Below are positions 41,236 to 61,565 of a DNA stretch of 64,000 nt, one piece after another (position 1 is the first letter of the stretch; each line of letters begins with the position of its first letter). The stretch is taken from positions 23,813-87,812 of the forward strand of contig PLHW01000072.1 in the NCBI GenBank assembly GCA_003139095.1, in the 5' to 3' direction. Under the pieces are notes generated by a model. The model saw only the letters and a list, made by a program, of their open reading frames with translations, was not told the DNA's origin and did not search any database. A program made the translations under genes and the position numbers. Origin of the DNA: Acidobacteriaceae bacterium. GTDB taxonomy: Bacteria; Acidobacteriota; Terriglobia; Terriglobales; Acidobacteriaceae.

Positions 41236-41748
41236 CCGACGCGCGTTTGAAGCAAGGCCAAGCACCGACGAAAATGAAGTGTGCAGCGAGCGTTTTATTT
41301 GTTGGCGTCCCCCGCGGATTTGGACCCGCTGGGCGCAAGGAACGAATCTGTTCACAATTGCTCATTTCCCAAAATGAAAAAAACGTTTGGACCTACGGTC
41401 TTATGACCCTTTCCCGAAACGCGTAAGTTATCCGAAAATAACGATCCGCTACCCGCTGGATGGGCATTCGCGGGATGGATTCACATCCGAGAAAACCCGG
41501 TGACGGGAGGTTGTTTGGGGGCTTGCGACATGAGCCATTCTGCACAGTATTGCTGGAGTAAGTGAGCGAATCTATCGGAGTGTCAAAAGGGGCAGTTTGC
41601 GCGCTTAGCCAGCCGCCCGACCTGTCCTTTCGGAACCGGACCGACAGAGACTGATTTGCGGGCGCTCCGGTTGTATTCCCAGGTCTGCAAATCCGCAACC
41701 GGTTGTGTTCGGACAAGCGGCCGTCCACGGGGCGGGCAAGGAGAAGTT
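41236..41748. other. Intergenic region with the possible left island end
   Basis: No gene. Contains the tRNA-Glu-like fragment at 41302-41329. From here to about 57.4 kb the sequence is visibly less G+C-rich and the gene content changes. Confidence 0.5.
41302..41329 (-). repeat. Degenerate copy of the tRNA-Glu 3' end, possible att site
   Basis: ttggcgtcccccgcggattt continuing ggacccgc aligns with 57435-57463, the acceptor and T-arm end of tRNA-Glu, at 26 of 29 positions (two substitutions, one gap). Same orientation. This is what an element inserted at the tRNA 3' end would leave at its far side. Confidence 0.5.
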
Positions 41749-48112: not shown

Positions 48113-48508
48113 TCAGCGACCAGGCTTGCGGGAAGCTCTCTTCTTAAGCGTTCTTAGCGGAATACCGCGCTTCCGTTCATCCGTGGAATGAGGTTGAGCA
48201 TCCTCGTTACCTTGGGCCGCGAGAGATGCCTTCAGGTCTTTCAAGAGGTCGGCGTCCGCGATAGCGACATGCACACCCGCAGCTTCGCCAGAGGTTCGCT
48301 GTAGCCACTGATTTAATTCGTCCGGGCTCGCAACCACGTTCCTTCCGTCCCGCCTAGTCGGCATTCCTTCTTTCGCCCAGCGGTGAGCTGTGGAATTGGG
48401 CATTCCGAGGAATCCGGCAATCGCTGGCCAACCGCGAAGCTCGGCCGACTTTCGCGCTGCGGCTCCCGCCTGAGTGTTCGGGCGACTTTTGCCTCGTTCG
48501 GCTGGCAT
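48113..48508 (-). CDS. Excisionase-like helix-turn-helix protein
   Basis: 131 aa. Residues about 25-72 form a MerR/excisionase-type winged HTH: GWPAIAGFLGMPNSTAHRWA, then KEGMPTRRDGRNVVASPDEL and NQWLQR. This pattern is shared by phage excisionases, AlpA-like regulators and terminase small subunits. The N- and C-terminal tails are basic. Placed between the accessory genes and the defence-like operon, it could be the recombination directionality factor of the island or a regulator. No ribosome-binding site is evident. Confidence 0.7.
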   Translation of the reverse strand: MPAERGKSRPNTQAGAAARKSAELRGWPAIAGFLGMPNSTAHRWAKEGMPTRRDGRNVVASPDELNQWLQRTSGEAAGVHVAIADADLLKDLKASLAAQGNEDAQPHSTDERKRGIPLRTLKKRASRKPGR

Positions 48509-48826: not shown

Positions 48827-49331
48827 GGCCGTCCTCTTGGGCTAGTGTCATAGCGGGGCCGACCGAGATTCATCGGAGGGGGCAATAGGGAGCTAGTCGT
48901 GTGTATAGTGTGCACCCGCATTTTCTGCCATAAGGGGAGTCGAAACCCTCATTTTGCTCCCGAGCAACCACGCCTCGTACCCGACGCCCACTAGGGGGTC
49001 CGAGGGATGAGAGCATCGGAGGTCAGACATCCTAGAATCGATCCACCCCCTCGTTGGACGACTCCTTGTATCCGCCGCATAACAAACTACTTAACATCCA
49101 TGCTTGCGTTCCGCCGAGCATTTGTCGGGGCCGCATCCGAAGGGCCAGGCTCCGATTTGAGGGGGTCCGAGTCTACAGTTCATGAGGGGTGCGCCAACGC
49201 CGTAAATTTGGGTTCTGCCCGCGAGGATTCTCCCGAAAATCATTGTCTACTATGTTCGGATTCTTTAAGGTTGGCGTCCCGGACCGGCTTACGTGATCCC
49301 GTGACCGTCGCTGGCAGGGCTGTTTCGGATT

Positions 49332-50537
49332 TCATTTTGAAGTGGCGGTCCAGCCGACTGTAAAAGGCTTTAACGGGAGCTTGGTCCCAATTCGAGAAAG
49401 GTTAATTGCTACTGATCCGTCTTCCAATGTGGTCAATGCGACGTGCCAATATGATCGGTCCCCGCGATCCGTCATGTTGAGGTTCTTCTTGTTCTCGTCT
49501 AAGAGCGAATAAGGCACAGCATAGCATTCATCTCTGTCCATGCAGGAGAGCACAAAATAACTCTCCTGGCCCTCGGCAAGAAAACGGTCCCAGTTCGGAT
49601 GGAAAGCGTACCAGTACGGTTGATAGTCCCCTTCATACCGCTTGGAAACGGCGCAGCACACGCGTAGGGTCTTATCCGAACTCCAAAACAAAGTGCGGCT
49701 GTACCGCACCAGTTCCTTGCCCTTTAGCCGCGCAAAAGCCTCGACGGCCTCTAATCGTTTGGCGGAAAGCAAGTCTGGATCCGTGCGTTCCTGCTTGTAC
49801 GAGTCACGGCCCTTTTGACCATCTTCGGTTGGGGTATGATCGACAATTTGCTCTTCGACATCAGCGGCAGTTGTGAATATTACGTCTATGATCCTGTCGA
49901 TTTTTGTGTACTCGAAGGGTTGGAGTAATTGGCGAATTTGCGTAAGGGTCGCTGGATCGTCAGATTTTTCCTTGATCTGGACCAGCTTTATTAGTCGCTC
50001 TACGCTGATTAGTCGCATATCCCAGGCGTACCGGGAACCGCGCACCTGAGCCTCAAGCGCACCTGTATCCTCTCGTCCGACAATGACAAGCATTGACGCG
50101 TTCGGTTTAATCCGCTGCTCGGCGCACAGCTTCACCTTATATTGAGCGATCTTGTCGAGTGAGATGGCCACATAATCCGTTGTTTTCACCTCAATCAAAA
50201 TGTCAGGGTCCGTTTGGGACCGCCATATCCCATCAAAGCCGACTGCCGTTTTCCGACCTTGATAAGGACCATTCTCGACATCGAAGTTTAACCTCCGGCC
50301 CAGTTCATTCACGATGTCTTGGAGAACAATTCCGCCCTTATCGAAAGCATTTTCTAGACAGTGCCGAGCGTAGTCGAAGAGCGATTCACTGGGACAGACT
50401 CGGAGGTATCCACAAAATTCTTGTGATGCCTCGTTTCCGTCCCGCAGATGACCGTCGCCTGCGTTGTTAACAACTTGCTCGACAGTCATCTTGAGCACTG
50501 CGTCACGATTGCTGTTCCAGATGCTCAGTAGTGGCAT
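49332..50537 (-). CDS. PD-(D/E)XK nuclease-like protein of the defence-like operon
   Basis: 401 aa. Residues about 60-185 fit a restriction-endonuclease-like fold: helix with Glu (DIVNELGRRL), then FDGIW (Asp102), DILIEVKTTD (Glu116, Lys118) and a following strand SMLVIVG, i.e. D-x13-ExK. A linker region follows (about 190-270). A separate C-terminal domain of about 120 residues has many aromatic residues (YWYAFHPNWDRFLAEGQESY, CMDRDECYAVPYSLLDE) and matches no family I can name. Last gene of the four-gene operon, 80 nt after the 462-aa gene. Probably the DNA-cutting effector. Confidence 0.75.
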   Translation of the reverse strand: MPLLSIWNSNRDAVLKMTVEQVVNNAGDGHLRDGNEASQEFCGYLRVCPSESLFDYARHCLENAFDKGGIVLQDIVNELGRRLNFDVENGPYQGRKTAVGFDGIWRSQTDPDILIEVKTTDYVAISLDKIAQYKVKLCAEQRIKPNASMLVIVGREDTGALEAQVRGSRYAWDMRLISVERLIKLVQIKEKSDDPATLTQIRQLLQPFEYTKIDRIIDVIFTTAADVEEQIVDHTPTEDGQKGRDSYKQERTDPDLLSAKRLEAVEAFARLKGKELVRYSRTLFWSSDKTLRVCCAVSKRYEGDYQPYWYAFHPNWDRFLAEGQESYFVLSCMDRDECYAVPYSLLDENKKNLNMTDRGDRSYWHVALTTLEDGSVAINLSRIGTKLPLKPFTVGWTATSK

Positions 50538-50617
50538 GCGGCAATAATAAAGCAGAACGCGAGTACCAATAGATGCTGTTTATCAGTTTTCTGCTGGCCC
50601 TCAATATAGTCCCAATT

Positions 50618-52006
50618 TCACCTGCGACGTGGCTTACGTTCTGTACGTCCCCGTGTAGCGTCGGCTCTAGCCGTGAGCCTTGAAAGTCTCAGTGAGATTT
50701 CTTGGAGCCTTTCACTAGTGTCGTCCAAATCGAACTGGATGGAGTCGAGAGCATCCACGTCCAATCGGGGCGGAAATAGTTGCTCTGGCGATTCGGTTCG
50801 CGGTGGCCAGCGCAGAGTAGCCGTGATGCAGGGTGCTATTTCAACCTCAAGCTGTGTGTTGCTACCGGTTCGAAAATCGAAAATTGCTTTTTGTTTGGCA
50901 TTGATGACCCGGAGCTCAGCCAGGCTCAGGTCGCAAGTTGGTCTATCTAGCAACGCCTCCCTCCTCAGCACCTCTCGAATCGCTCGTCTTCCCAGGCCAC
51001 CCGCATAAGACGCCACATTTGAACGCCGATGAAGGCCAGCACAAAACCCATACCACAGGAGTATCCCAGGAAAAATATGGACGTACGGAGAGACAAGTTG
51101 CAAATGATCTAATGTTCCCGGAGCGATCTGGCTCGCCAAGTACCCCAGCACGAAAGCAATCGAAAGGGATGCGGCCTCAGGTCGGCTCCTGAAGTGACGT
51201 ACGAGGTCCTCTAGCACGAGAACCCTGTCCTCTCGGGGGCCACGCATCACCTTTCCTAAATCGCCAACTCCCGGCACTTCGGATTCGAGAGAGCGCCACT
51301 GACGATTATCAATTTCCCCCTTGAGGTAAAGATCCAAGATTGCGTCAAGGACGGAAGAGGGTACCTGATCTCGGACATCGGATTTCCAAGCACCACTCTC
51401 CAAACCCAATAGTACGTACCAGGGGGAGTGCAGCGCGTCTTTGGTCAGCGGAACACTGGTCTGTCGAGTGAGTTCCCTAGCCTCGAACCAACCGTTGGAT
51501 ACTGTGTCACTCTCCATTGTCACCGCTCCGAGAGCAAGAGCCCGCGCCATAACGAACGAATAGGTCCCGGTACAGGCACGCGCCGGAACCTGATTAAGAT
51601 CGCGTTGGCCCTCAAGGTAAGTCGCCGTTTCTCCCAATATCAAACCTGCACAAGCGTTCTCCAGTCTGTGCAGATTCGGTGTGGGTTGAAACTTGAACGC
51701 TTGTTCCGCGTTTTCAAAATTACTGACCCGAATGTACGCGGTCAACGGAGTGAGCGTGTTTAGATACGTCAATGCCCAGGCCAGCAGATCCCGCTCATCT
51801 CCGTCAGCAACAATTAAGTTTGGGAGAGTTAGCATCTCCCTGGGGTCATCCTGCCAGACAAGGATCAGGTCCCCTGTTCTGTGAGGGGGTGAGAGTGAAC
51901 TAACAGCACTGAACTCATATCGGGAAAACAGTCCGCCCGAGTCTTCCAGTATCCGCGCCTGCAATATGTCGATCAATTCTCTGCGATTTGTCGTTTTGAC
52001 CCACAT
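50618..52006 (-). CDS. Unrecognised 462-aa component of the defence-like operon
   Basis: 462 aa with no motif I recognise. The N-terminal ~110 residues (LIDILQARILEDSGGLFSRY, LILVWQDDPREMLTLPN) look alpha/beta. The middle is helical. At about 285-335 there are two hydrophobic stretches (SLSIAFVLGYLASQI, HIFPGILLWYGFCAGLH) that might be membrane or buried helices. The C-terminal ~70 residues are predicted coiled coil (LQEISLRLSRLTARA) ending in a basic tail RGRTERKPRRR. Its ATG is 3 nt after the helicase stop, so translation is coupled. Possible roles: target sensing or scaffold. Confidence 0.7.
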   Translation of the reverse strand: MWVKTTNRRELIDILQARILEDSGGLFSRYEFSAVSSLSPPHRTGDLILVWQDDPREMLTLPNLIVADGDERDLLAWALTYLNTLTPLTAYIRVSNFENAEQAFKFQPTPNLHRLENACAGLILGETATYLEGQRDLNQVPARACTGTYSFVMARALALGAVTMESDTVSNGWFEARELTRQTSVPLTKDALHSPWYVLLGLESGAWKSDVRDQVPSSVLDAILDLYLKGEIDNRQWRSLESEVPGVGDLGKVMRGPREDRVLVLEDLVRHFRSRPEAASLSIAFVLGYLASQIAPGTLDHLQLVSPYVHIFPGILLWYGFCAGLHRRSNVASYAGGLGRRAIREVLRREALLDRPTCDLSLAELRVINAKQKAIFDFRTGSNTQLEVEIAPCITATLRWPPRTESPEQLFPPRLDVDALDSIQFDLDDTSERLQEISLRLSRLTARADATRGRTERKPRRR

Positions 52007-52009
52007 GTT

Positions 52010-53176
52010 CTATTTGGTCTTTCCGCCAAAAACGTCTTTGATCTTTGGCAAGTCCTTTGTTGGTTCGAGTTGCATGAGCGCCCGCTCAAAATATCCAGGC
52101 AGATCATCTGAATAATGTATGGACAGAGTCGTCTTGCACCGAGTTACCGCAACGTATGCGATGTTCCTCTGCAGCCGGAAGCGTTTCAAAGACTCGCATG
52201 CAGCAAGGTGCAGGCCTCTGAACTCAATTCCTTTTGCGGAGTGAAATGTGCCAACAATGATCGGCTTCCCTTTTACGAAAGCAGAATGCTCTCCCCCTTT
52301 TTGAAGAACGCACAGACCACAAAGAGGAGATTCTGACATCAATTGCCAGACTTCGTTCACATCCTCATTGCGAGGGCACAAAACGCCAAACAATGCATCA
52401 GGATATGCCTTGAGTTGGAGCACGAGTTTCTCGATGATTTTCTGCGTTTCCTTACGCAAGCTACCAGAGCGAACATGTTCGACGGACGAGGGTTTAGCCG
52501 TTTCATCGTAATGCGATGTAGGCAGCAGTGGGACGTAGCCAATGGAGTCCCGTCCTAAAGCATCGGCCAGTTTGCAAATCTGTCGTCCACATCGATATTG
52601 ATACTTCAAAACGTGCTCTTTCCCCTGCACAAGCCCTCGCAGTGTATCCAAGGGATCTGGAGTTGCATAGATTTTTTGCCGTGAGTCGGCAACTGCAAAG
52701 AGCGTGCGAGCAAGCCTGCTAAACAATTCGATCTCTTCAGGCAAGTAGTCTTGTGCCTCATCCAACAGAATGGCGTCGTAAATATGAAACAGTTTTCGTT
52801 TTTCGACTAGATTCGTGACCTCATCCAGAAAGTACTCCCGCTGTTCCTCGAAACCGTCGGGAGGATTGGTGAACACCCCATACTGAAAAAGCAACTGCTG
52901 GGCCCATTTCCTTGATGTTTGCACCTTATCGGGAGGAAAAGCATAACGCTTCGCCCCAGACGCAATGAACTCTTGTAGTGTGCGGGAAAAAACAATTACC
53001 TCAATATCGGGCTTGCCCGCCAGGGTCATATAGTTTCCGCGCAACAGCAAAAGATTTGTCTTACCGCTCCCTGGCGGCCCGGTAATTAGGTGATTCCCGG
53101 AAAGGGGAAGAGCGATGACGTCTTTCTGATCTTCGTCGAGTTCATCTTCCCCTACCCACCACGTTTCACTCATCAC
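52010..53176 (-). CDS. Compact UvrD-like SF1 helicase of the defence-like operon
   Basis: 388 aa, about half the length of UvrD/PcrA. Motifs: I HLITGPPGSGKTNLLLL, II YDAILLDEAQDYL, III-like FAVADSRQKIYA, IV-like KYQYRCGRQI, V VGTFHSAKGIEFRG and VI AYVAVTRCKTTLSIHYS. All ATPase/translocase motifs are present, but there is little room for the 1B/2B insertions of true UvrD, resembling stand-alone UvrD_C_2/DUF2075-like enzymes. It lies 33 nt after the ATPase stop and 3 nt before the 462-aa gene. Probably translocates or senses DNA for the system. Confidence 0.85.
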   Translation of the reverse strand: MMSETWWVGEDELDEDQKDVIALPLSGNHLITGPPGSGKTNLLLLRGNYMTLAGKPDIEVIVFSRTLQEFIASGAKRYAFPPDKVQTSRKWAQQLLFQYGVFTNPPDGFEEQREYFLDEVTNLVEKRKLFHIYDAILLDEAQDYLPEEIELFSRLARTLFAVADSRQKIYATPDPLDTLRGLVQGKEHVLKYQYRCGRQICKLADALGRDSIGYVPLLPTSHYDETAKPSSVEHVRSGSLRKETQKIIEKLVLQLKAYPDALFGVLCPRNEDVNEVWQLMSESPLCGLCVLQKGGEHSAFVKGKPIIVGTFHSAKGIEFRGLHLAACESLKRFRLQRNIAYVAVTRCKTTLSIHYSDDLPGYFERALMQLEPTKDLPKIKDVFGGKTK

Positions 53177-53209
53177 CCAACTCCACTCGCTCCGATCGGG
53201 GACACATTG

Positions 53210-54685
53210 TCATTTTGCTTGCCCCTGAATCATCTTTAGCGCATCTCTATAAACAAACGGTACCCAGAAGACGGTCTTTTCCTTGACAGTTCGTTTCTCG
53301 AAAAAACCAATTTCCGTTAGGCGCTCGGCGTTTCTGAGGGCGTCCGCGTCAGTCGTGTTCCAAATCTTCGCTAGTGTTTTGGCAGTTTGATGAGTCTTCT
53401 TTCCCTCTAGCAAATTGAGTAAGGACTTCAAACTTGCGTGCTCTGCGCACAGGGTCTGATGGAAACGTTCGCTGGAAACTTCTGGCAGCCCGGCTTTCAA
53501 TGCCGAACGGTCTATAAGAATTTCTCCGGGAGGGTCGGACCCGCCGACTTCGAGGGACCTGAGTTGCTGTTCCCTGGCGGAGGAAATGAGGTGTATCAAT
53601 TCTCGCGGGGCTGTTTGCTTCGTACCGTCCTTTGTACGCGACAAGACCCATTCCAGGGTAGAGGTCTTGCCGGAACCGCTGTCCACCTGCTTGGGAAATA
53701 TGCGATAGAAAAGTTCCTGCTGCAATTCTGCGCTCTTCAGTACCTCCCTATCATCCACATGGTAGTAGGCTTTGAGCGAGTCGTTGTGAAGCGCACGTCT
53801 CACGACCAGGTTCAGCAGAGTTTGGGGGTTCCACGTAATCTTGGTGTAGCGCGTGATATGGCTTGCTTCCCTGAATCCACCCTCCGTAATGCGTCGCCAG
53901 ATGTCATCTCTCAAAAACACTTTCAGTGAGATGTTCCGAAGACCAGTTATGTCGAGGTAGACTCGGAACAATGCCCGCAAAGCGCGCGCTTCCAGTTCGT
54001 CAGAATCGAGAAACGCGACATCCAGACGATCAAGAACAATCCATATCTTCAAAGGCACCAGTGCAAGCGCCTCGTCAGCGGCTTGAAGCAAATCGTCCGC
54101 AGATACAAAACCCTTCTTACGCTCCTCTCCGCTCGGCTCCCCGAGGGTTATCTTCCCGCCGAGCTCAGGCATGCCAGTGTTGGGGTCAATCTTGACCTCG
54201 CCCGAGAGTTGGAGCCGTCTAACGTACTCAAGTACTGAGTTCAGAATACGCTTTAGCGTCCAGTCCGCCGCTACTAGTCCTGCAGCCTCAAGGGCTTCAA
54301 CTACTCGGCTCGCTGGGTCGTTCTTGAGATTTCGAGCACGGAAGGTTTGCGCAACCAAAGAAAGACAATACAATTTCCAAATCCCCCGCAGTTGCTCTTC
54401 CGATGATTGTTGGGTAACCAGATCTCTGAAGACTGGCGTTCCCATTACATTCTCGCCAGGCAAAACCAAGATTTCCCGTTGCGCCAGTTCATTGGCTTTC
54501 TTGATAAGAAGGGAGTAGATCGCACTCTTACCTGAGCCCTTGGGCCCATAGACCACGTCGATCTCGCCCGCGAACACTTTTCTCCATTGTTCGGTTTCGA
54601 CGAAATATGACTCAAGAGCGTCAGTTTCCTCTTCAGCGATGCGCTTACCAAAATGGGTTTCAGTCAAAACTACACGCTTCGACAT
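53210..54685 (-). CDS. P-loop ATPase, Sll1717-like, first gene of the defence-like operon
   Basis: 491 aa. Walker A VYGPKGSGKSAIYSLLIKK (about 42-50) and Walker B ALVPLKIWIVLDRLDVAF (about 215-225), then the arginine-containing LKVFLRDDIWRRIT. These, with the N-terminal FGKRIAEEETDALESYFVET, place it near the Sll1717 family of STAND/KAP-like ATPases often met in defence islands. The C-terminus is a winged-helix-like segment (LTEIGFFEKRTVKEKTVFWV). I choose ATG 54685 because ctgaggagc stands 8 nt upstream and a -10-like tatact lies behind it. The frame also opens with a TTG at 54778 overlapping the resolvase stop. Confidence 0.82.
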   Translation of the reverse strand: MSKRVVLTETHFGKRIAEEETDALESYFVETEQWRKVFAGEIDVVYGPKGSGKSAIYSLLIKKANELAQREILVLPGENVMGTPVFRDLVTQQSSEEQLRGIWKLYCLSLVAQTFRARNLKNDPASRVVEALEAAGLVAADWTLKRILNSVLEYVRRLQLSGEVKIDPNTGMPELGGKITLGEPSGEERKKGFVSADDLLQAADEALALVPLKIWIVLDRLDVAFLDSDELEARALRALFRVYLDITGLRNISLKVFLRDDIWRRITEGGFREASHITRYTKITWNPQTLLNLVVRRALHNDSLKAYYHVDDREVLKSAELQQELFYRIFPKQVDSGSGKTSTLEWVLSRTKDGTKQTAPRELIHLISSAREQQLRSLEVGGSDPPGEILIDRSALKAGLPEVSSERFHQTLCAEHASLKSLLNLLEGKKTHQTAKTLAKIWNTTDADALRNAERLTEIGFFEKRTVKEKTVFWVPFVYRDALKMIQGQAK

Positions 54686-54727
54686 GGCCAAGCTCCTCAG
54701 CGCAGCCGAGATTACCGAAAGAGGTAA

Positions 54728-54733
54728 AGTATA
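54728..54733 (-). promoter_or_regulatory. Possible -10 element of the defence-like operon
   Basis: tatact on the minus strand, 42 nt before the ATG at 54685, in the 89-nt gap between the resolvase and the ATPase. No good -35 hexamer stands 16-18 nt upstream, so this is tentative. Confidence 0.3.
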
Positions 54734-54774
54734 CGCGGTTAGAACGCAGCGGGGCTGCCAGGTCAGCGTCTTCG

Positions 54775-55470
54775 TCAAGCATTCGCTCCGGCCGCGTCAT
54801 TGTTACGTTGGAGCACACGAGCAATCTGCTTTTCGAACCACCTCTCGCCAGCTCTGGGTTTTCGGTTTTCAGCGTGTAAAATTTCCGTAATTTTGGCGAG
54901 AGTGTAGCCCTGAGAACGTAATTCTGTAATCCGTTCCACGGTTTCAGCTTCTCCCGGTCGGAAACCAAACGGCTTGCGACCTTCGCGGTACCCAGGTCGG
55001 GCAGCTTTTGCTCGTTGCCGCGCGCCACGTAGCTTCTGGACGATTACTTTCCTCTCATACTCTGCGAATGCACCCATCATTTGGCGCAGCAGAACGCGCG
55101 TGGGATCGTCGCTGCAGAGGTCAGGCTCAGCGACTGAGATGAGTTCGAAACCGTTACGCCGCATGTCCGCGAGTATCGATTCTTGGATCATCAGGTCACG
55201 GGCGAGTCGATCCAGCTTTTCAATTAGAACCAATTTCGTTCCGTTGCCATGCAACGCTGTTATGAGTTCCTGAAGTGCCGGTCGGTTTTCCAAATCTTTG
55301 GTGCCCGAAACAGAGTCACGAAACCACCGTGCAATGCGGACATTGTTAGCGGCGGCCCACTTGCGGATTGCTGTCTCCTGTCTTACAACTCCGTCCTTGT
55401 CCTCTGCCGACTGGCCGACTGAGGATACCCGGCAGTACCCAAATCCATTTCGCTTGCGATGGGTTTGCAT
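54775..55470 (-). CDS. Small serine recombinase (resolvase/invertase type)
   Basis: 231 aa. Catalytic domain about 1-145: FGYCRVSSVGQSAEDKDGVV (Ser nucleophile in RVSS), LIEKLDRLARDLMIQESIL and FAEYERKVIVQKLRGARQRA. A short C-terminal HTH (ITELRSQGYTLAKITEILHA) makes it a resolvase/invertase-size enzyme. It is complete, divergent from the large recombinase at 55937 and directly upstream of the ATPase gene on the same strand. It could resolve cointegrates or invert or excise the operon. Confidence 0.9.
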   Translation of the reverse strand: MQTHRKRNGFGYCRVSSVGQSAEDKDGVVRQETAIRKWAAANNVRIARWFRDSVSGTKDLENRPALQELITALHGNGTKLVLIEKLDRLARDLMIQESILADMRRNGFELISVAEPDLCSDDPTRVLLRQMMGAFAEYERKVIVQKLRGARQRAKAARPGYREGRKPFGFRPGEAETVERITELRSQGYTLAKITEILHAENRKPRAGERWFEKQIARVLQRNNDAAGANA

Positions 55471-55936
55471 GTGGCGAATAGTGCTCTCTTCAGGTTGTAT
55501 CTGTCAAGACAAATCGTAAGCGATTAGACAACTGCATGAAAACACGGAGTAATTGCTCGTGAACTATCGAAGTCAGATTCCTCGATTCGCAATGGGGATT
55601 GTGGCGGGGGTGTCGGCATCGGGCAAGCCATACCTATTCCACATGATGGTGGGGCGACACCGGGCGTACTGACTGAGCTCAGGTGGTCGCCAAGTTTTGT
55701 GTTCTGGGAACAGGGTCTACAGCGGATGCACACTACACGCAACGTCCATGACGCACACTGTACATTTGCTCTGGCCCGCCCTCGCTGGGCACTCCTCTAT
55801 ATCCCAGATAGCATTTAAACCACTAGAACCGTTTGCTAGCCGAATTTGGATTAGCTAGCTAGGGCTAGCCTCCTAGTGACCTCCCTTCTCGTCTAGGGAG
55901 CCATCTGAAGCGCCCCGGCAGCTACCCGCTGTTAAG
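55471..55936. other. Region between divergent recombinases, with repeat
   Basis: Non-coding divergent promoter region. At 55834-55880 it is rich in ctag words, including gctagcc...ggctagcc. The 13-nt tagctagggctag at 55856-55868 repeats 48814-48826. Serine integrases often have their att site just upstream of the gene, which fits the position. Confidence 0.4.
55856..55868. repeat. 13-nt repeat, right copy (candidate inner att)
   Basis: tagctagggctag, identical to 48814-48826, lies 69 nt before the large serine recombinase gene and inside a partly palindromic stretch (gctagcc ... ggctagcc). Confidence 0.3.
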
Positions 55937-57457
55937 ATGAGCACAGCCACGATGAAATCGGCTAAAGGGGACTCTATGGCAGGGGCCGTCTTTTACATTC
56001 GCGTTTCTACGGCAGAACAAGCATCAGGGAACAATAGCTTGCCCGTTCAGGAGAAGAAGCTTCGGGACTACTGTAGGCGCGAAGGTCTTGACGTGCTCAA
56101 GGTGTTCGTTGATCCAGGTGAGAGTGCCAGAACTACGGACAGGCCAAAGTTCCAGGCGATGCTGGCGTATTGTCGGGAGCACCGTCGGAAGGTGTCACAC
56201 GTGTTGGTTGCCGATCTGTCCCGTTTGTCGCGTAGTGTCATGGATCAGGGCTACACAATTGCTGCACTCCAACGACTTGGTGTAAAGGTCGAATCGGTTG
56301 ACGAGCCGATGACGGGTGACTCCGCAGTTGGGCAGCTTACGCGGAACATGATTGGAACGTTCAATCAGTTCTTCAGCGATTCCCTGTCAGAGCGGACCCG
56401 ATACCGAATGAAGGCAGCCGTCAACGCAGGGCGTTTCCCATGGCCCGCCCCTATTGGCTATTTGAATGTTGACAAGAAACTTTGCGCCGATCCTGAGCGG
56501 GCACCTTTCGTGCGTCAAGCGTTTGAGCTAATGGCATCTGGACGCTTTTCGACAGGCGACAGTGTTCTGAAGCTCCTCACGAGTCTGGGACTGACAACAA
56601 GAAAGGGCAGGCCGCTTACAAAACAGAGCTTCGCTCGGATGTTGTCCAACCCGCTTTATATGGGCTGGATTGTGTCTGGAGACGACCGGGTGCTGGGCAA
56701 TCACGATCCTCTTATTTCTGAGGCGCTATTCCAGAATGTGCAACAGCGAATCAATGGGAAGGCTTGCCCACACAAGAAGGTCAACGAAGATTTCCCTCTG
56801 CGGGGAGTGGTTCAGTGTGCCAAGTGTGGCAAGCCCCTAACGGCCGGATGGGTCAGGGGTAGAAAAAAGCTATATCCACGCTACTGGTGCTGGGAGGAAA
56901 AGTGCAAGGCCGTAGGCGTGAGTCGTGAAGACCTAGAAGGTCAGTTTGTGAACCTGCTATCCAGGATGCAGCCCACTGCGGAATTGCTAGCCGAACTGCC
57001 CGAACGTGCTGCCGCACATTGGCAGGCACGTAAAGCCCGAATCGCGGTTGATGCTCGGACCTTGAACAACAGTCTAGCGGTTGAAAGAACTTTGAACCAA
57101 AAAGCAATCATGGCGAAGCTCAACGGGACGCTATCCGATGCGGATTTCGATTCCGTTAAGGCATCTATTACAGAGAAGATTTCGGGCATCGAATCGCAGA
57201 TAAAGGCCTTAGATTGTGAGCGTTCCACAATGGACGACCTACTTCAACAGACTCAGAATGAGGCGGTCGATCTTGTCGGAGCCTGGCAAAAGGGAAACAT
57301 AAACCAGCGGCAGGAGCTAGCGACTGCGTTCTTTCCTGAAGGACTCGTGTTCAGCCACGAAAGGCAGTTCTTTGAACCGGCTAACGTGGTGATTCATCAG
57401 ATGGTTTGGCGCTTCGTGACCAACGAGATTGATATTGGCGTCCCCGGCGGGATTTGA
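55937..57457 (+). CDS. Large serine recombinase (site-specific integrase)
   Basis: 506 aa. Resolvase-type catalytic domain (about 10-160): AVFYIRVSTAEQASG with Ser nucleophile and SHVLVADLSRLSRSVMDQGY. Recombinase DNA-binding domain (about 180-290: APFVRQAFELMASGRFSTGD, FARMLSNPLYMGWIVSGDD). Zinc ribbon VVQCAKCGKPL...YWCWEEKCKAV (about 295-330). Long coiled coil (about 365-440). The last residues IGVPGGI and the TGA are read from the tRNA-Glu gene, so the natural C-terminus was probably fused on insertion. ATG 55937, 55952 or 55976 are possible starts. Confidence 0.92.
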   Translation: MSTATMKSAKGDSMAGAVFYIRVSTAEQASGNNSLPVQEKKLRDYCRREGLDVLKVFVDPGESARTTDRPKFQAMLAYCREHRRKVSHVLVADLSRLSRSVMDQGYTIAALQRLGVKVESVDEPMTGDSAVGQLTRNMIGTFNQFFSDSLSERTRYRMKAAVNAGRFPWPAPIGYLNVDKKLCADPERAPFVRQAFELMASGRFSTGDSVLKLLTSLGLTTRKGRPLTKQSFARMLSNPLYMGWIVSGDDRVLGNHDPLISEALFQNVQQRINGKACPHKKVNEDFPLRGVVQCAKCGKPLTAGWVRGRKKLYPRYWCWEEKCKAVGVSREDLEGQFVNLLSRMQPTAELLAELPERAAAHWQARKARIAVDARTLNNSLAVERTLNQKAIMAKLNGTLSDADFDSVKASITEKISGIESQIKALDCERSTMDDLLQQTQNEAVDLVGAWQKGNINQRQELATAFFPEGLVFSHERQFFEPANVVIHQMVWRFVTNEIDIGVPGGI

Positions 57458-57463
57458 ACCCGC
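57435..57463 (-). repeat. tRNA-Glu 3' end as right att copy
   Basis: ttggcgtccccggcgggatt continuing tgaacccgc; partner of the fragment at 41302-41329. It overlaps both the tRNA and the end of the integrase gene. Confidence 0.5.
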
Positions 57464-57513
57464 GTTACCGCCGTGAAAGGGCGATGTCCTAGGCCAGGCT
57501 AGACGACGGGGAC
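57436..57513 (-). tRNA. tRNA-Glu (anticodon UUC)
   Basis: On the minus strand: GTCCCCGTCGTCTAGCCTGG ... CGGGGAC-G-CCA, with the CCA encoded. Acceptor stem GTCCCCG/CGGGGAC is perfect. The anticodon stem TCGCC/GGCGG (one G-U) has loop CTTTCAC, giving UUC. T-arm GCGGG-TTCGAAT-CCCGC is perfect. Its 3' end overlaps the serine recombinase gene, marking the integration site. Confidence 0.95.
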
Positions 57514-58778: not shown

Positions 58779-61565
58779 CTACTTGGTGCGTCCGCCTTCG
58801 ATTTTTAGTGCGTCGCTGGCTGCCGCCTGAGCTGCCGCCAACCGCGCCGTTAAAACGCGGAATGGCGAGCACGACACATAGTTCAAGCCAGTCTTGTAGC
58901 AGAACTCCACCGACGAGGGCTCGCCGCCATGCTCGCCGCAGATGCCAACCTTCAGGTTCGGGCGCGTCTTGCGCCCGCGTTCGGTGGCCATCTGCACAAG
59001 CTGGCCCACACCTTCGCGATCGAGCACGGCAAACGGATCGTGCTTGATGATCCCGAGCTCGATGTAAGTCGGCAGGATTTTGTTGACATCGTCGCGCGAG
59101 AAGCCCCACGTGGTCTGGGTAAGGTCGTTAGTGCCGAAAGAGAAGAACTGCGCCTCCTTGGCAATTTCGTCGGCCACCAGCGCAGCGCGCGGGAGCTCGA
59201 TCATCGTGCCCACGAGATATTCGACGGTAGTTCCCTTGTCGTCGAACACCTCTTTCGCGACGCGCTTCACGATTGCTCCCTGGTTTGCCATTTCGTTGAG
59301 AGTTGCCGTGAGCGGAATCATGACCTCCGGAAATACCTTGACGCCTTCTTTGGCCACGGCAACAGCCGCCTCGAAAATCGCGCGCGCCTGCATCTCAGTA
59401 ATCTCGGGATACGTGATTCCAAGCCGGCAGCCGCGATGCCCGAGCATGGGATTGAACTCGTGCAACTGTTCGACGCGGCTGAGCAGGGCCGGCATCAGCT
59501 TCTTTAAATCGCCGGCCGCCTTCGCCCCGTAGTCTCTGTATTTCGCCACCAGCTCTTTCTTCTGCTTCGCGTCGGCCTGCGGCAAAGTGGCAATGTCGAC
59601 CATGAGCTCTTCGCGTCGCGGCAAAAATTCGTGAAGCGGCGGATCGAGCGTGCGGATCGTCACCGGGAAGCCATCCATCGCGCGGAACACGCCGATGAAA
59701 TCGTTGCGCTGCATGGGGAGCAACTTCTTCAGCGCCGCGCGCCGGTCCTTTTCCGTGTCGGCGAGAATCATGGCGCGCATGTGCGGAATTTTCTTCTCAC
59801 CGAAGAACATGTGCTCGGTGCGGCACAGTCCGATGCCCTCGGCGCCAAAGGTTCGCGCCTGGATTGCGTCGCGGGGAATGTCGGCATTGGCGCGGACTTT
59901 CATCGTGCGATAGGGATCGGCCCAGGCCATAAATTTCTGGAGCTCGGGATCGTCGGGCGACGGATCGAGCGTCTTCAGCTTGCCCTTGATGAGGCGGCCG
60001 GTCGTGCCGTCGAGCGAAATCCAATCGCCCGCTTTGAACACCTGGCCCTTCACGCGCATCTCGCCGGCTTTTTCGCTGACGTCAACATCGCCCGCGCCGG
60101 CCACGCAGCACTTGCCCATGCCGCGCGTGACGACCGCAGCGTGACTCGTCATTCCGCCCCGTGAGGTCAAAATCCCCTTTGCCACTTCCATGCCATGAAT
60201 ATCTTCGGGAGTGGTTTCGCCGCGCACCAGGATGACGGAAGCCTTGCTGTCCTTTTGCACCGCCGCCACCGCCGCATCCGCCGTGAAGACGATCTGCCCG
60301 ACGGCCGCGCCGGGCGAGGCCGGCAAGCCCTTCGCCAGCACTTCAATCTTTTGTCCCTTTTCGTCGAGCCGAGGAACGAGGAAGTCGTAAAGCTGGTTCG
60401 GCTCGACACGGAAGATCGCCTCTTCCTTCGTGATCAGGCCTTCGTCGACCATCTGGAGCGCCACGCGGACAGCCGCGAGTCCCGTGCGTTTGCCGTTGCG
60501 CGTTTGCAGCATGTACAGCTTTCCGTCCTGGATGGTGAACTCGAAATCCTGCATGTCTTTGTAGTGCGTTTCGAGCCGCGTGGTGATCGCGCGCAGCTGG
60601 TTGTAAACGGCCGGCATGATCTTCTCGAGTTCCAGAATGTGAACCGGAGTGCGCACGCCCGAGACCACGTCCTCACCCTGCGCGTTCAGCAGAAATTCGC
60701 CGTAGAATTCTTTCGTGCCCGTGGCCGGATTGCGCGTGAAGCCGACGCCGGTGCCCGATGTTTCGCCGAGGTTGCCGAAGACCATCGCCTGCACGTTGAC
60801 CGCAGTGCCGAGGTCGTCGGAAATACTGTTGATGCGGCGATAGTGCCTGGCGCGGTCGTTATTCCAGGAGCGGAACACGGCATCGCGCGACATGACGAGC
60901 TGGTCGTGCGCGTTCTGCGGGAAGTCGCGCTTGGCGTGCTTTTTGACGACCTTCTTATATTCTTCGATGACTTCCTTCAGCGCCTTGGCGTCGAGATCGG
61001 TGTCAAGCTTTACCTTGCGCTGCTTTTTCTTGCCGTCAAAGACTTCTTCGAACTCCGCTTTTTCGATCTCGAGCACGACGTTGCCGAACATCTGAATCAG
61101 GCGGCGGTAGGAGTCGTAGGCAAAGCGCGGATTGTTCGTGCGCTTCGCAAGCGCCTCGACGCTCTGATCGTTGAGACCAAGGTTGAGAATCGTATCCATC
61201 ATGCCGGGCATGGAAAACTTTGCGCCCGAGCGCACGCTCACCAGCAGCGGATTCTCTCCCTGACCTAGCTTCTGTCCCTGGAGTTTTTCGAGTTTGTCGA
61301 GCGCCGCATCGGTCTGGCTGTCGACTTCTTTCGAGACCGCGTTATGCCGCATGTACTCGCGGCAGGCCTCGGTTTGAATGGTGAATCCGGGAGGCACGGG
61401 CAGCCCGGCATTGGTCATTTCGGCGAGGCCGGCGCCTTTGCCGCCGAGCACATCTTTCATTTTTCCGTTGCCGTCGGCCTTGCCGCCGCCGAAGAAGTAA
61501 ACATACTTTGTGGAAGAGCTCTTGGTTTGCGCAATTTCTGTTTCGGGGAGAGTAAGCGTCGCCAT
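58779..61565 (-). CDS. ppdK: Pyruvate, phosphate dikinase
   Basis: Interconverts pyruvate + ATP + Pi and PEP + AMP + PPi. 928 aa, slightly longer than the usual ~875. N-terminal ATP-grasp (about 20-370: GKGAGLAEMTNAGLPVPPGF, RSGAKFSMPGMMDTILNLGL). Phosphohistidine domain (about 430-545: GGMTSHAAVVTRGMGKCCVA, catalytic His). C-terminal PEP/pyruvate TIM barrel (RTEHMFF, GHRGCRLGITYPEI, FFSFGTNDLTQTTWGFSRDD, ICGEHGGEP with the Cys). It starts 16 nt after the glyS stop, so it is co-transcribed. Confidence 0.96.
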   Translation of the reverse strand: MATLTLPETEIAQTKSSSTKYVYFFGGGKADGNGKMKDVLGGKGAGLAEMTNAGLPVPPGFTIQTEACREYMRHNAVSKEVDSQTDAALDKLEKLQGQKLGQGENPLLVSVRSGAKFSMPGMMDTILNLGLNDQSVEALAKRTNNPRFAYDSYRRLIQMFGNVVLEIEKAEFEEVFDGKKKQRKVKLDTDLDAKALKEVIEEYKKVVKKHAKRDFPQNAHDQLVMSRDAVFRSWNNDRARHYRRINSISDDLGTAVNVQAMVFGNLGETSGTGVGFTRNPATGTKEFYGEFLLNAQGEDVVSGVRTPVHILELEKIMPAVYNQLRAITTRLETHYKDMQDFEFTIQDGKLYMLQTRNGKRTGLAAVRVALQMVDEGLITKEEAIFRVEPNQLYDFLVPRLDEKGQKIEVLAKGLPASPGAAVGQIVFTADAAVAAVQKDSKASVILVRGETTPEDIHGMEVAKGILTSRGGMTSHAAVVTRGMGKCCVAGAGDVDVSEKAGEMRVKGQVFKAGDWISLDGTTGRLIKGKLKTLDPSPDDPELQKFMAWADPYRTMKVRANADIPRDAIQARTFGAEGIGLCRTEHMFFGEKKIPHMRAMILADTEKDRRAALKKLLPMQRNDFIGVFRAMDGFPVTIRTLDPPLHEFLPRREELMVDIATLPQADAKQKKELVAKYRDYGAKAAGDLKKLMPALLSRVEQLHEFNPMLGHRGCRLGITYPEITEMQARAIFEAAVAVAKEGVKVFPEVMIPLTATLNEMANQGAIVKRVAKEVFDDKGTTVEYLVGTMIELPRAALVADEIAKEAQFFSFGTNDLTQTTWGFSRDDVNKILPTYIELGIIKHDPFAVLDREGVGQLVQMATERGRKTRPNLKVGICGEHGGEPSSVEFCYKTGLNYVSCSPFRVLTARLAAAQAAASDALKIEGGRTK

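Follow-up and report, generated by a model that had tools for sequence, protein, structure and literature searches.

Several described systems approach the locus considered here. Gabija resembles it in that a UvrD-like helicase stands beside an ATPase gene, and we know of no third gene in Gabija like that for P3, the third protein of our locus. The MkoA protein of Mokosh is a fusion of a kinase and a helicase, PD-T4-6 is a single-gene system, and MADS is a larger one. By sequence, the best relatives of our helicase in PADLOC and the PDB are NERD-UvrD (PADLOC C3a187) and HelD, respectively. Sll1717-family ATPases include DS-41 of DefensePredictor, which PMC13092281 counts among validated systems; judging from its name, the NCBI model DS41_1 presumably represents that same DS-41.

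The locus lies in a 64,000-nucleotide stretch of DNA from an Acidobacteriaceae bacterium (contig PLHW01000072.1), hereafter called the window. Its four genes on the minus strand encode a Sll1717-type P-loop ATPase (54685..53210; 491 aa from an ATG, the mechanical ORF start being the TTG at 54778), a minimal SF1 (UvrD/HelD-like) helicase (53176..52010; 388 aa), P3 (52006..50618; 462 aa, with a basic C-terminal tail) and a PD-(D/E)XK-type nuclease candidate (50537..49332; 401 aa, with D102, E116 and K118). As described in the original prediction, which took these genes for a single undescribed defence system, the four share a strand and are separated by gaps of 33, 3 and 80 nt; all four ORFs are intact. 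A purine-rich stretch precedes the helicase start at the 33-nt ATPase-helicase junction, and no promoter-like sites were found in 49000-56000, where shuffled sequence gives 3.7. The reported drop in G+C content was also confirmed, with values of 0.49-0.54 in the four genes and 0.53-0.54 in two neighbouring recombinase genes, versus 0.60 in a gene at 58779-61565, which lies to the right of a tRNA-Glu and was named by eye as pyruvate phosphate dikinase-like.

The first gene product had been called a Sll1717-type ATPase, and its score of 206.1 bits against the NCBIfam family NF047389, far over the curated cut-off of 75, makes it a member of that family. It also matched, over nearly its full length, the uncharacterised PHROG 14159 (E=1.8e-118), as well as the PADLOC candidate-defence model PDC-M28C (E=5.6e-19); a search of the PDB by sequence gave nothing usable. 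Membership of NF047389 is shared with DS-41, but the DS41_1 model scored 42.5 bits on the window ATPase, far under its cut-off of 370. In contrast to Gabija, the ATPase is of the Sll1717 type and matched no model of GajA, the ATPase-TOPRIM protein that stands beside GajB, up to E = 1. Relatives of the ATPase were found in 12 of 297 genomes of the phylum (the window included), in two viral contigs and in three plasmid records; a search of phages found none.

The second protein had been described as a compact UvrD-like helicase, and this held up: it matched Pfam UvrD-helicase at 34.3 bits (cut-off 23), and the nearest solved structures by sequence were HelD (E=8e-29), UvrD, PcrA and the Gabija helicase GajB. 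When aligned with UvrD, the helicase profile skips approximately 77 residues at one subdomain and 160 at another, which we take to be 1B and 2B; since most of both is missing in comparison with UvrD, the protein appears to consist essentially of two RecA-like domains. NERD-UvrD differs in another respect, as the match to C3a187 starts at position 195 of 559 of the model, so that the N-terminal part is missing from the window protein. The helicase motifs are nearly invariant across 52 aligned members of this minimal SF1 A6 family; the window helicase, which is 54% identical to its nearest relative among the matches listed (L010), is the only one of the 52 with a valine at position 342, beside motif VI, and retains the other scored motif residues.

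The third protein had been said to lack a recognisable domain, and indeed searches of four libraries (Pfam, PADLOC, NCBIfam and PHROGs) gave window P3 no match up to E = 1; 51 family members compared with Pfam gave one chance-level match, and the PDB search by sequence yielded nothing usable. The C-terminal tail is the feature that stands out: the last 25 residues carry a net charge of at least +5 in 25 of 51 members, compared with 0.7% of 875 other 25-residue segments, which suggests nucleic-acid binding. Four matches to P3, including the window, were found in the 297 phylum genomes, and two of the other three had a kinase and a helicase upstream. The third, L004 in genome G273, was dropped, since on inspection by eye its ORF looked like a metallophosphatase. 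Five P3 queries together matched three plasmid records, and the two plasmid loci inspected (Rhizobium and Cupriavidus) had the same order of kinase, helicase and P3; no P3 relative was found in viral contigs, or in phages searched with one P3 query.

The nuclease found nothing better than E = 0.029 in Pfam, PADLOC, NCBIfam and PHROGs, and its best PDB match by sequence (E 0.17) was no convincing relative. The predicted D102/E116/K118 geometry is nevertheless borne out in the sequence, in that a D...ExK site is conserved in position across eight aligned sequences, with D102 and E116 in all eight and K118 a lysine in seven and an arginine in one. No PADLOC family matched the nuclease up to E = 1, and thus neither Shedu nor any other named nuclease system was hit. 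Its relatives occur in 8 of the 297 phylum genomes, window included, and none was found in viral contigs or plasmids.

Genome contigs were scanned with the helicase alone, disregarding neighbours, which gave at least 207 relatives; the best 80 of these were kept and their gene context was then read. A cut of 180 bits on the profile score left 56 loci, namely the window, two plasmids, L007, L008, the viral contig L089 and 50 genome contigs; below this cut were mostly longer helicases lacking kinase or P3. P3 profile searches added three more loci (L175, L177 and L178), giving 58 loci other than the window; L063, where the locus ends in a helicase fragment preceded by a kinase, and the fragment L058 were excluded from the counts. 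The usual gene order is a Ser/Thr kinase, the minimal SF1 helicase and P3. A Ser/Thr kinase is the next same-strand ORF upstream of the helicase in 56 of the 58 listed non-window loci, though the kinase is split by an insertion in L177, is in two pieces in L089, and in L057 is a 342-aa ORF some 590 nt from the helicase. In 53 of the 58, the first same-strand ORF after the helicase is P3; in four of the five exceptions (L052, L054, L057 and L089) the contig ends there, and in the fifth, L016, just a 94-aa piece of P3 lies behind an unlabelled 414-aa ORF. The genes are tightly packed, with a kinase-helicase gap of 20 nt or less in 49 of 53 cases and a helicase-P3 gap of 20 nt or less in all 51 (window included, L016 left out).

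The three proteins are also inherited together. Pairwise identities correlate between helicase and P3 (r 0.88, n 50), helicase and kinase (r 0.90, n 49) and kinase and P3 (r 0.85, n 48), each with a permutation p of 0.0005, and the kinase H, R, D, K, N and D residues are invariant in all 51 aligned sequences, the L057 and L089 fragments being left out. Record titles place the 56 loci in seven named phyla; 37 loci belong to Pseudomonadota, and for 7 no phylum is given. Many are metagenome bins and single phylum assignments may be wrong. The set is rare; profile searches found it in 2 of 398 and 1 of 247 genomes in two phylum samples, in 3 of 200 genomes of the window's order and in 2 of 149 of a family sample; the seed genome is part of each of these figures, and a broken copy is among the 3 of 200. 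On the helicase tree, the bootstrap of which is not settled, phyla are mixed, as horizontal transfer would give. The kinase-helicase-P3 set matched no named system in PADLOC, NCBIfam, PHROGs or Pfam. Among the literature matches listed, no such system was described; that search left most subscription papers and bioRxiv preprints outside its reach and is not proof of absence. We conclude that this is apparently an undescribed system, present in many bacteria.

The ATPase and nuclease do not share in this conservation. Across the 908 ORFs of the 58 other helicase loci, no relative of either was detected at E up to 0.01; in the converse direction, 29 re-examined loci around ATPase or nuclease relatives (some of them overlapping) contained neither P3 nor kinase, and the sole match to the helicase profile was marginal, at 16.5 bits. 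Many of these 29 loci are no longer than 3-4 kb, and the upstream side of the nuclease is out of sight in L120 and L123, where its gene starts at or near a contig end. The four genes were nonetheless rejected as a conserved unit, since none of the 58 listed loci repeats the ATPase or nuclease with the helicase. The original prediction therefore divides: the co-conservation that it called for is absent for the set of four and present for the helicase-P3 pair (53 of 58), and its undescribed defence candidate survives as a pair within a scattered, co-inherited set free of named-system matches rather than as one four-gene system. A single system in which, alongside the helicase, the ATPase would act as sensor, P3 as adaptor and the nuclease as an effector cutting phage DNA would account for the common strand, the gaps of at most 80 nt, the similar, lower G+C content and the placement of all four genes inside one proposed element; we regard it as improbable given the lack of co-conservation, the nuclease relatives that occur without the pair, and the nuclease gap, which is the widest of the three. 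From sequence comparison, the four genes are instead a mosaic, in which the helicase-P3 pair belongs to a wider three-gene cluster and the nuclease is probably an accessory gene.

The conserved partner of the pair, a Ser/Thr kinase, is absent from the window locus, and was hence invisible from the window sequence alone. Here, the helicase-family member is followed directly by P3 (3 nt) with no Ser/Thr kinase directly upstream; the ATPase occupies the position that the kinase holds in the relatives' loci, an arrangement seen once, in the window only. Nor was a cognate kinase found elsewhere in the window's genome, which is 98.13% complete: the best of 29 kinase-profile matches scored 87.7 bits, while the lowest full-size member of the kinase family scored 218.6 bits with a profile of the same alignment. 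Two other loci have no kinase. In L036, an unassigned 136-aa ORF and a Peptidase_M78 protein lie upstream, and in L017, near a contig end, there is an unassigned 289-aa protein; an early idea that this last gene was Abi_C-like had no Pfam support. The window sits amid kinase-bearing relatives on the helicase tree, with the forks around it not strongly supported, and the kinase state changes three times on that tree (window, L036 and L017).

As part of the explanation that we consider best, and hold with somewhat more confidence than doubt, the window locus would be a kinase-less derivative in which the ATPase stands in the place of the kinase and the nuclease has been appended. A competing account, which we rate as rather doubtful, is that the helicase and P3 of the window are a non-functional remnant, and that the ATPase and nuclease are independent single-gene loci which happen to share the element. 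It draws on the absence of P3 and kinase from the loci of ATPase and nuclease relatives, on a gene combination repeated in none of the 58 loci, on decay elsewhere (a broken P3 in G1113, the split kinase of L177) and on the valine unique to the window helicase. Against decay in the window itself, both the helicase and P3 are full length, with no stop or frameshift and with the other scored motif residues of the helicase kept, and the ATPase-helicase junction is tight, with its purine-rich stretch ahead of the helicase start.

The locus also shows signs of mobility. Two serine recombinases and a tRNA had been noted beside the genes, and are indeed present: a 231-aa serine recombinase (54775-55470, minus strand; Pfam Resolvase 3.1e-31), a 506-aa large serine recombinase (55937-57457, plus strand; Pfam Resolvase, Recombinase and Zn_ribbon_recom) and tRNA-Glu (ttc) (57436-57513, minus strand), the 3' end of which is overlapped by that of the large recombinase gene by 22 nt. 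Ten regions from the genus were chosen by a 197-aa gene to the right of the tRNA. A tRNA-like match, placed by nucleotide similarity, was present in nine of them (all but L164), and in those nine similarity to the window resumes at the tRNA; the dikinase-like gene was likewise found in nine of ten (all but L165). Just past the nuclease, at 49271..49323 on the plus strand, lies a degenerate repeat of the tRNA-Glu 3' end, with a score of 41, or 42 with a longer query; across 60 mononucleotide shuffles, made from a 13.3-kb region, the highest score was 34, although the scan itself covered the whole window. We propose that this repeat marks the left end of an 8.2-kb element, about 49271-57454, which would have been integrated at the 3' end of tRNA-Glu, the putative target, by the serine recombinases. 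A second degenerate copy of the tRNA 3' end is found at 41302-41329 (score 44); successive integrations may thus have occurred, of which the 8.2-kb element that holds the four genes would be the latest. In L162, genes that make up the left flank in the window are found a few kilobases away from the tRNA. On balance we favour a locus made up of this element carrying a helicase-P3 core, its kinase lost or replaced by the ATPase and the nuclease added.

The case for defence begins with the kinases of the relatives. These match the PD-T4-6 and MADS (mad6) models in 51 of 51 cases, with E values down to 3e-39, although any Ser/Thr kinase domain would score somewhat against the PD-T4-6 models; the window, in contrast to both systems, has no kinase. 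The same 51 of 51 match an MkoA model, PDLC03920, and the relatives share with Mokosh the logic of joining kinase and helicase. They differ from it in that the two are separate genes and the helicase is of the UvrD/HelD type, the window helicase matching an MkoA model only around the P-loop, and the window's gene set again has no kinase at all.

Gene company points in the same direction. At 49 loci of the system, two neighbours a side of 150 aa or more were taken, and the 147 of these 181 proteins that did not exceed 620 aa matched 331 PADLOC models at E 1e-10. As a control, three neighbours a side were taken at 28 helicase loci that do not belong to the system, and the 138 scanned, out of 156, matched 89. 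These figures count models, not proteins, and the Gabija pair of L030 accounts for 94 models at the stricter 1e-15; with heavily overlapping models and sets drawn in slightly different ways, the comparison is suggestive at most, and the control helicases too have some defence genes close by, HamA and PDC-S02 among them. When ten neighbours picked by hand were searched at 1e-15, seven matched PADLOC and three did not; neighbours matching defence models include GajA and GajB (L030), a dGTPase (L031), a type I methyltransferase (L034), a Pycsar cyclase (L044) and a PDC-M68B protein (L010), and the RtcR-like regulator matched in L015 is not specific to defence. Among ten large neighbours, one matched a defence model, a type I restriction subunit in L022. 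Hence, the expectation that relatives would lie near known defence genes holds for some loci, which adjoin such genes or sit on mobile DNA, and not for the four-gene order. In addition, a further small protein accompanies the set in six loci, and looks FRG-domain-like by eye; three members searched against Pfam gave no match.

The kinase-helicase-P3 set could also be a stress or DNA-repair/transcription module carried on mobile DNA, a reading that we consider unlikely, and in which a HelD-like activity would recycle stalled polymerase under kinase control. Of the solved structures, HelD is the nearest to the helicase in sequence, and L005 lies near SOS/translesion genes, both as such a module might predict. 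A rare and patchy distribution, copies on plasmids, defence genes beside some loci and, with the reservation given above, the resemblance of the kinases to PD-T4-6 all argue for defence instead. Judged from gene company and mobility, the set is probably an anti-phage system.

Under that interpretation, the two-RecA-domain helicase would be kept in place by the basic-tailed P3, either on DNA or at a transcription complex, and would use ATP in engaging phage nucleic acid or such a complex. The engaged state would then pass to the protein of the first gene, normally the kinase, whose phosphorylation activity may stop growth or phage development. In the window, the ATPase would serve as the output, as a nucleotide-driven switch, if the swap is functional, and the nuclease may be an additional effector, or else a separate defence gene that shares the element. 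More tentatively, the helicase and P3 may form a reusable nucleic-acid-sensing core, the signalling heads of which are exchanged by gene replacement; it is possible, though we would not lean on it, that these heads comprise the Ser/Thr kinase in most loci, the Sll1717 ATPase here, and perhaps the metallopeptidase-containing pair of L036 or the 289-aa protein of L017.

The valuable part of the locus is thus the helicase-P3 pair, the core of an apparently undescribed system. If its role in defence is true, that system extends over seven named phyla and includes a protein, P3, that falls outside the searched libraries. The kinase-less copy in the window would then amount to a gene swap made by nature, from which the contribution of the kinase might be learned, namely whether sensing falls to the helicase and P3, with the first gene as a replaceable output.

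Upstream of the intact tRNA, remnants of the 3' end of tRNA-Glu lie at two places, window positions 41302-41329 and 49271-49323, which suggests that integration at this site has been repeated. Just to the left of the end of the proposed element, a 131-aa helix-turn-helix-like protein with weak Pfam matches is encoded (window 48113-48508).

In six loci, the kinase-helicase-P3 system is adjoined by a homologous protein of 152-203 aa, which is located downstream of the system in L025, L032 and L040, and upstream of it in L034, L037 and L042; no Pfam match was obtained for the three of these six members that were scanned. On the Cupriavidus plasmid locus (L006, 11320-12708), P3 is followed by a gene for an AAA/nSTAND-like ATPase. 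Inspection by eye of L122 (6761-13388) showed a nuclease relative flanked on one side by a gene resembling serine recombinases and on the other by an ATPase-like protein of 1142 aa, with a Fic-like protein farther out.

Broken copies of the system were also observed; the kinase gene is interrupted in L177 (5295-7738) by an insertion with a 326-aa ORF that appears by eye to be transposase-like, and P3 has decayed into three pieces with stops in L170-L172, from a genome of the window's family (G1113).

In L008 (1428-17559), Tn7-type-like transposition genes (TnsA/B/C and TniQ, assigned by eye) flank the kinase-helicase-P3 genes on both sides. The helicase and pieces of the kinase are present on an IMG/VR contig (L089), on the strength of which DNA of phages, or DNA resembling it, may be a vehicle for the system.
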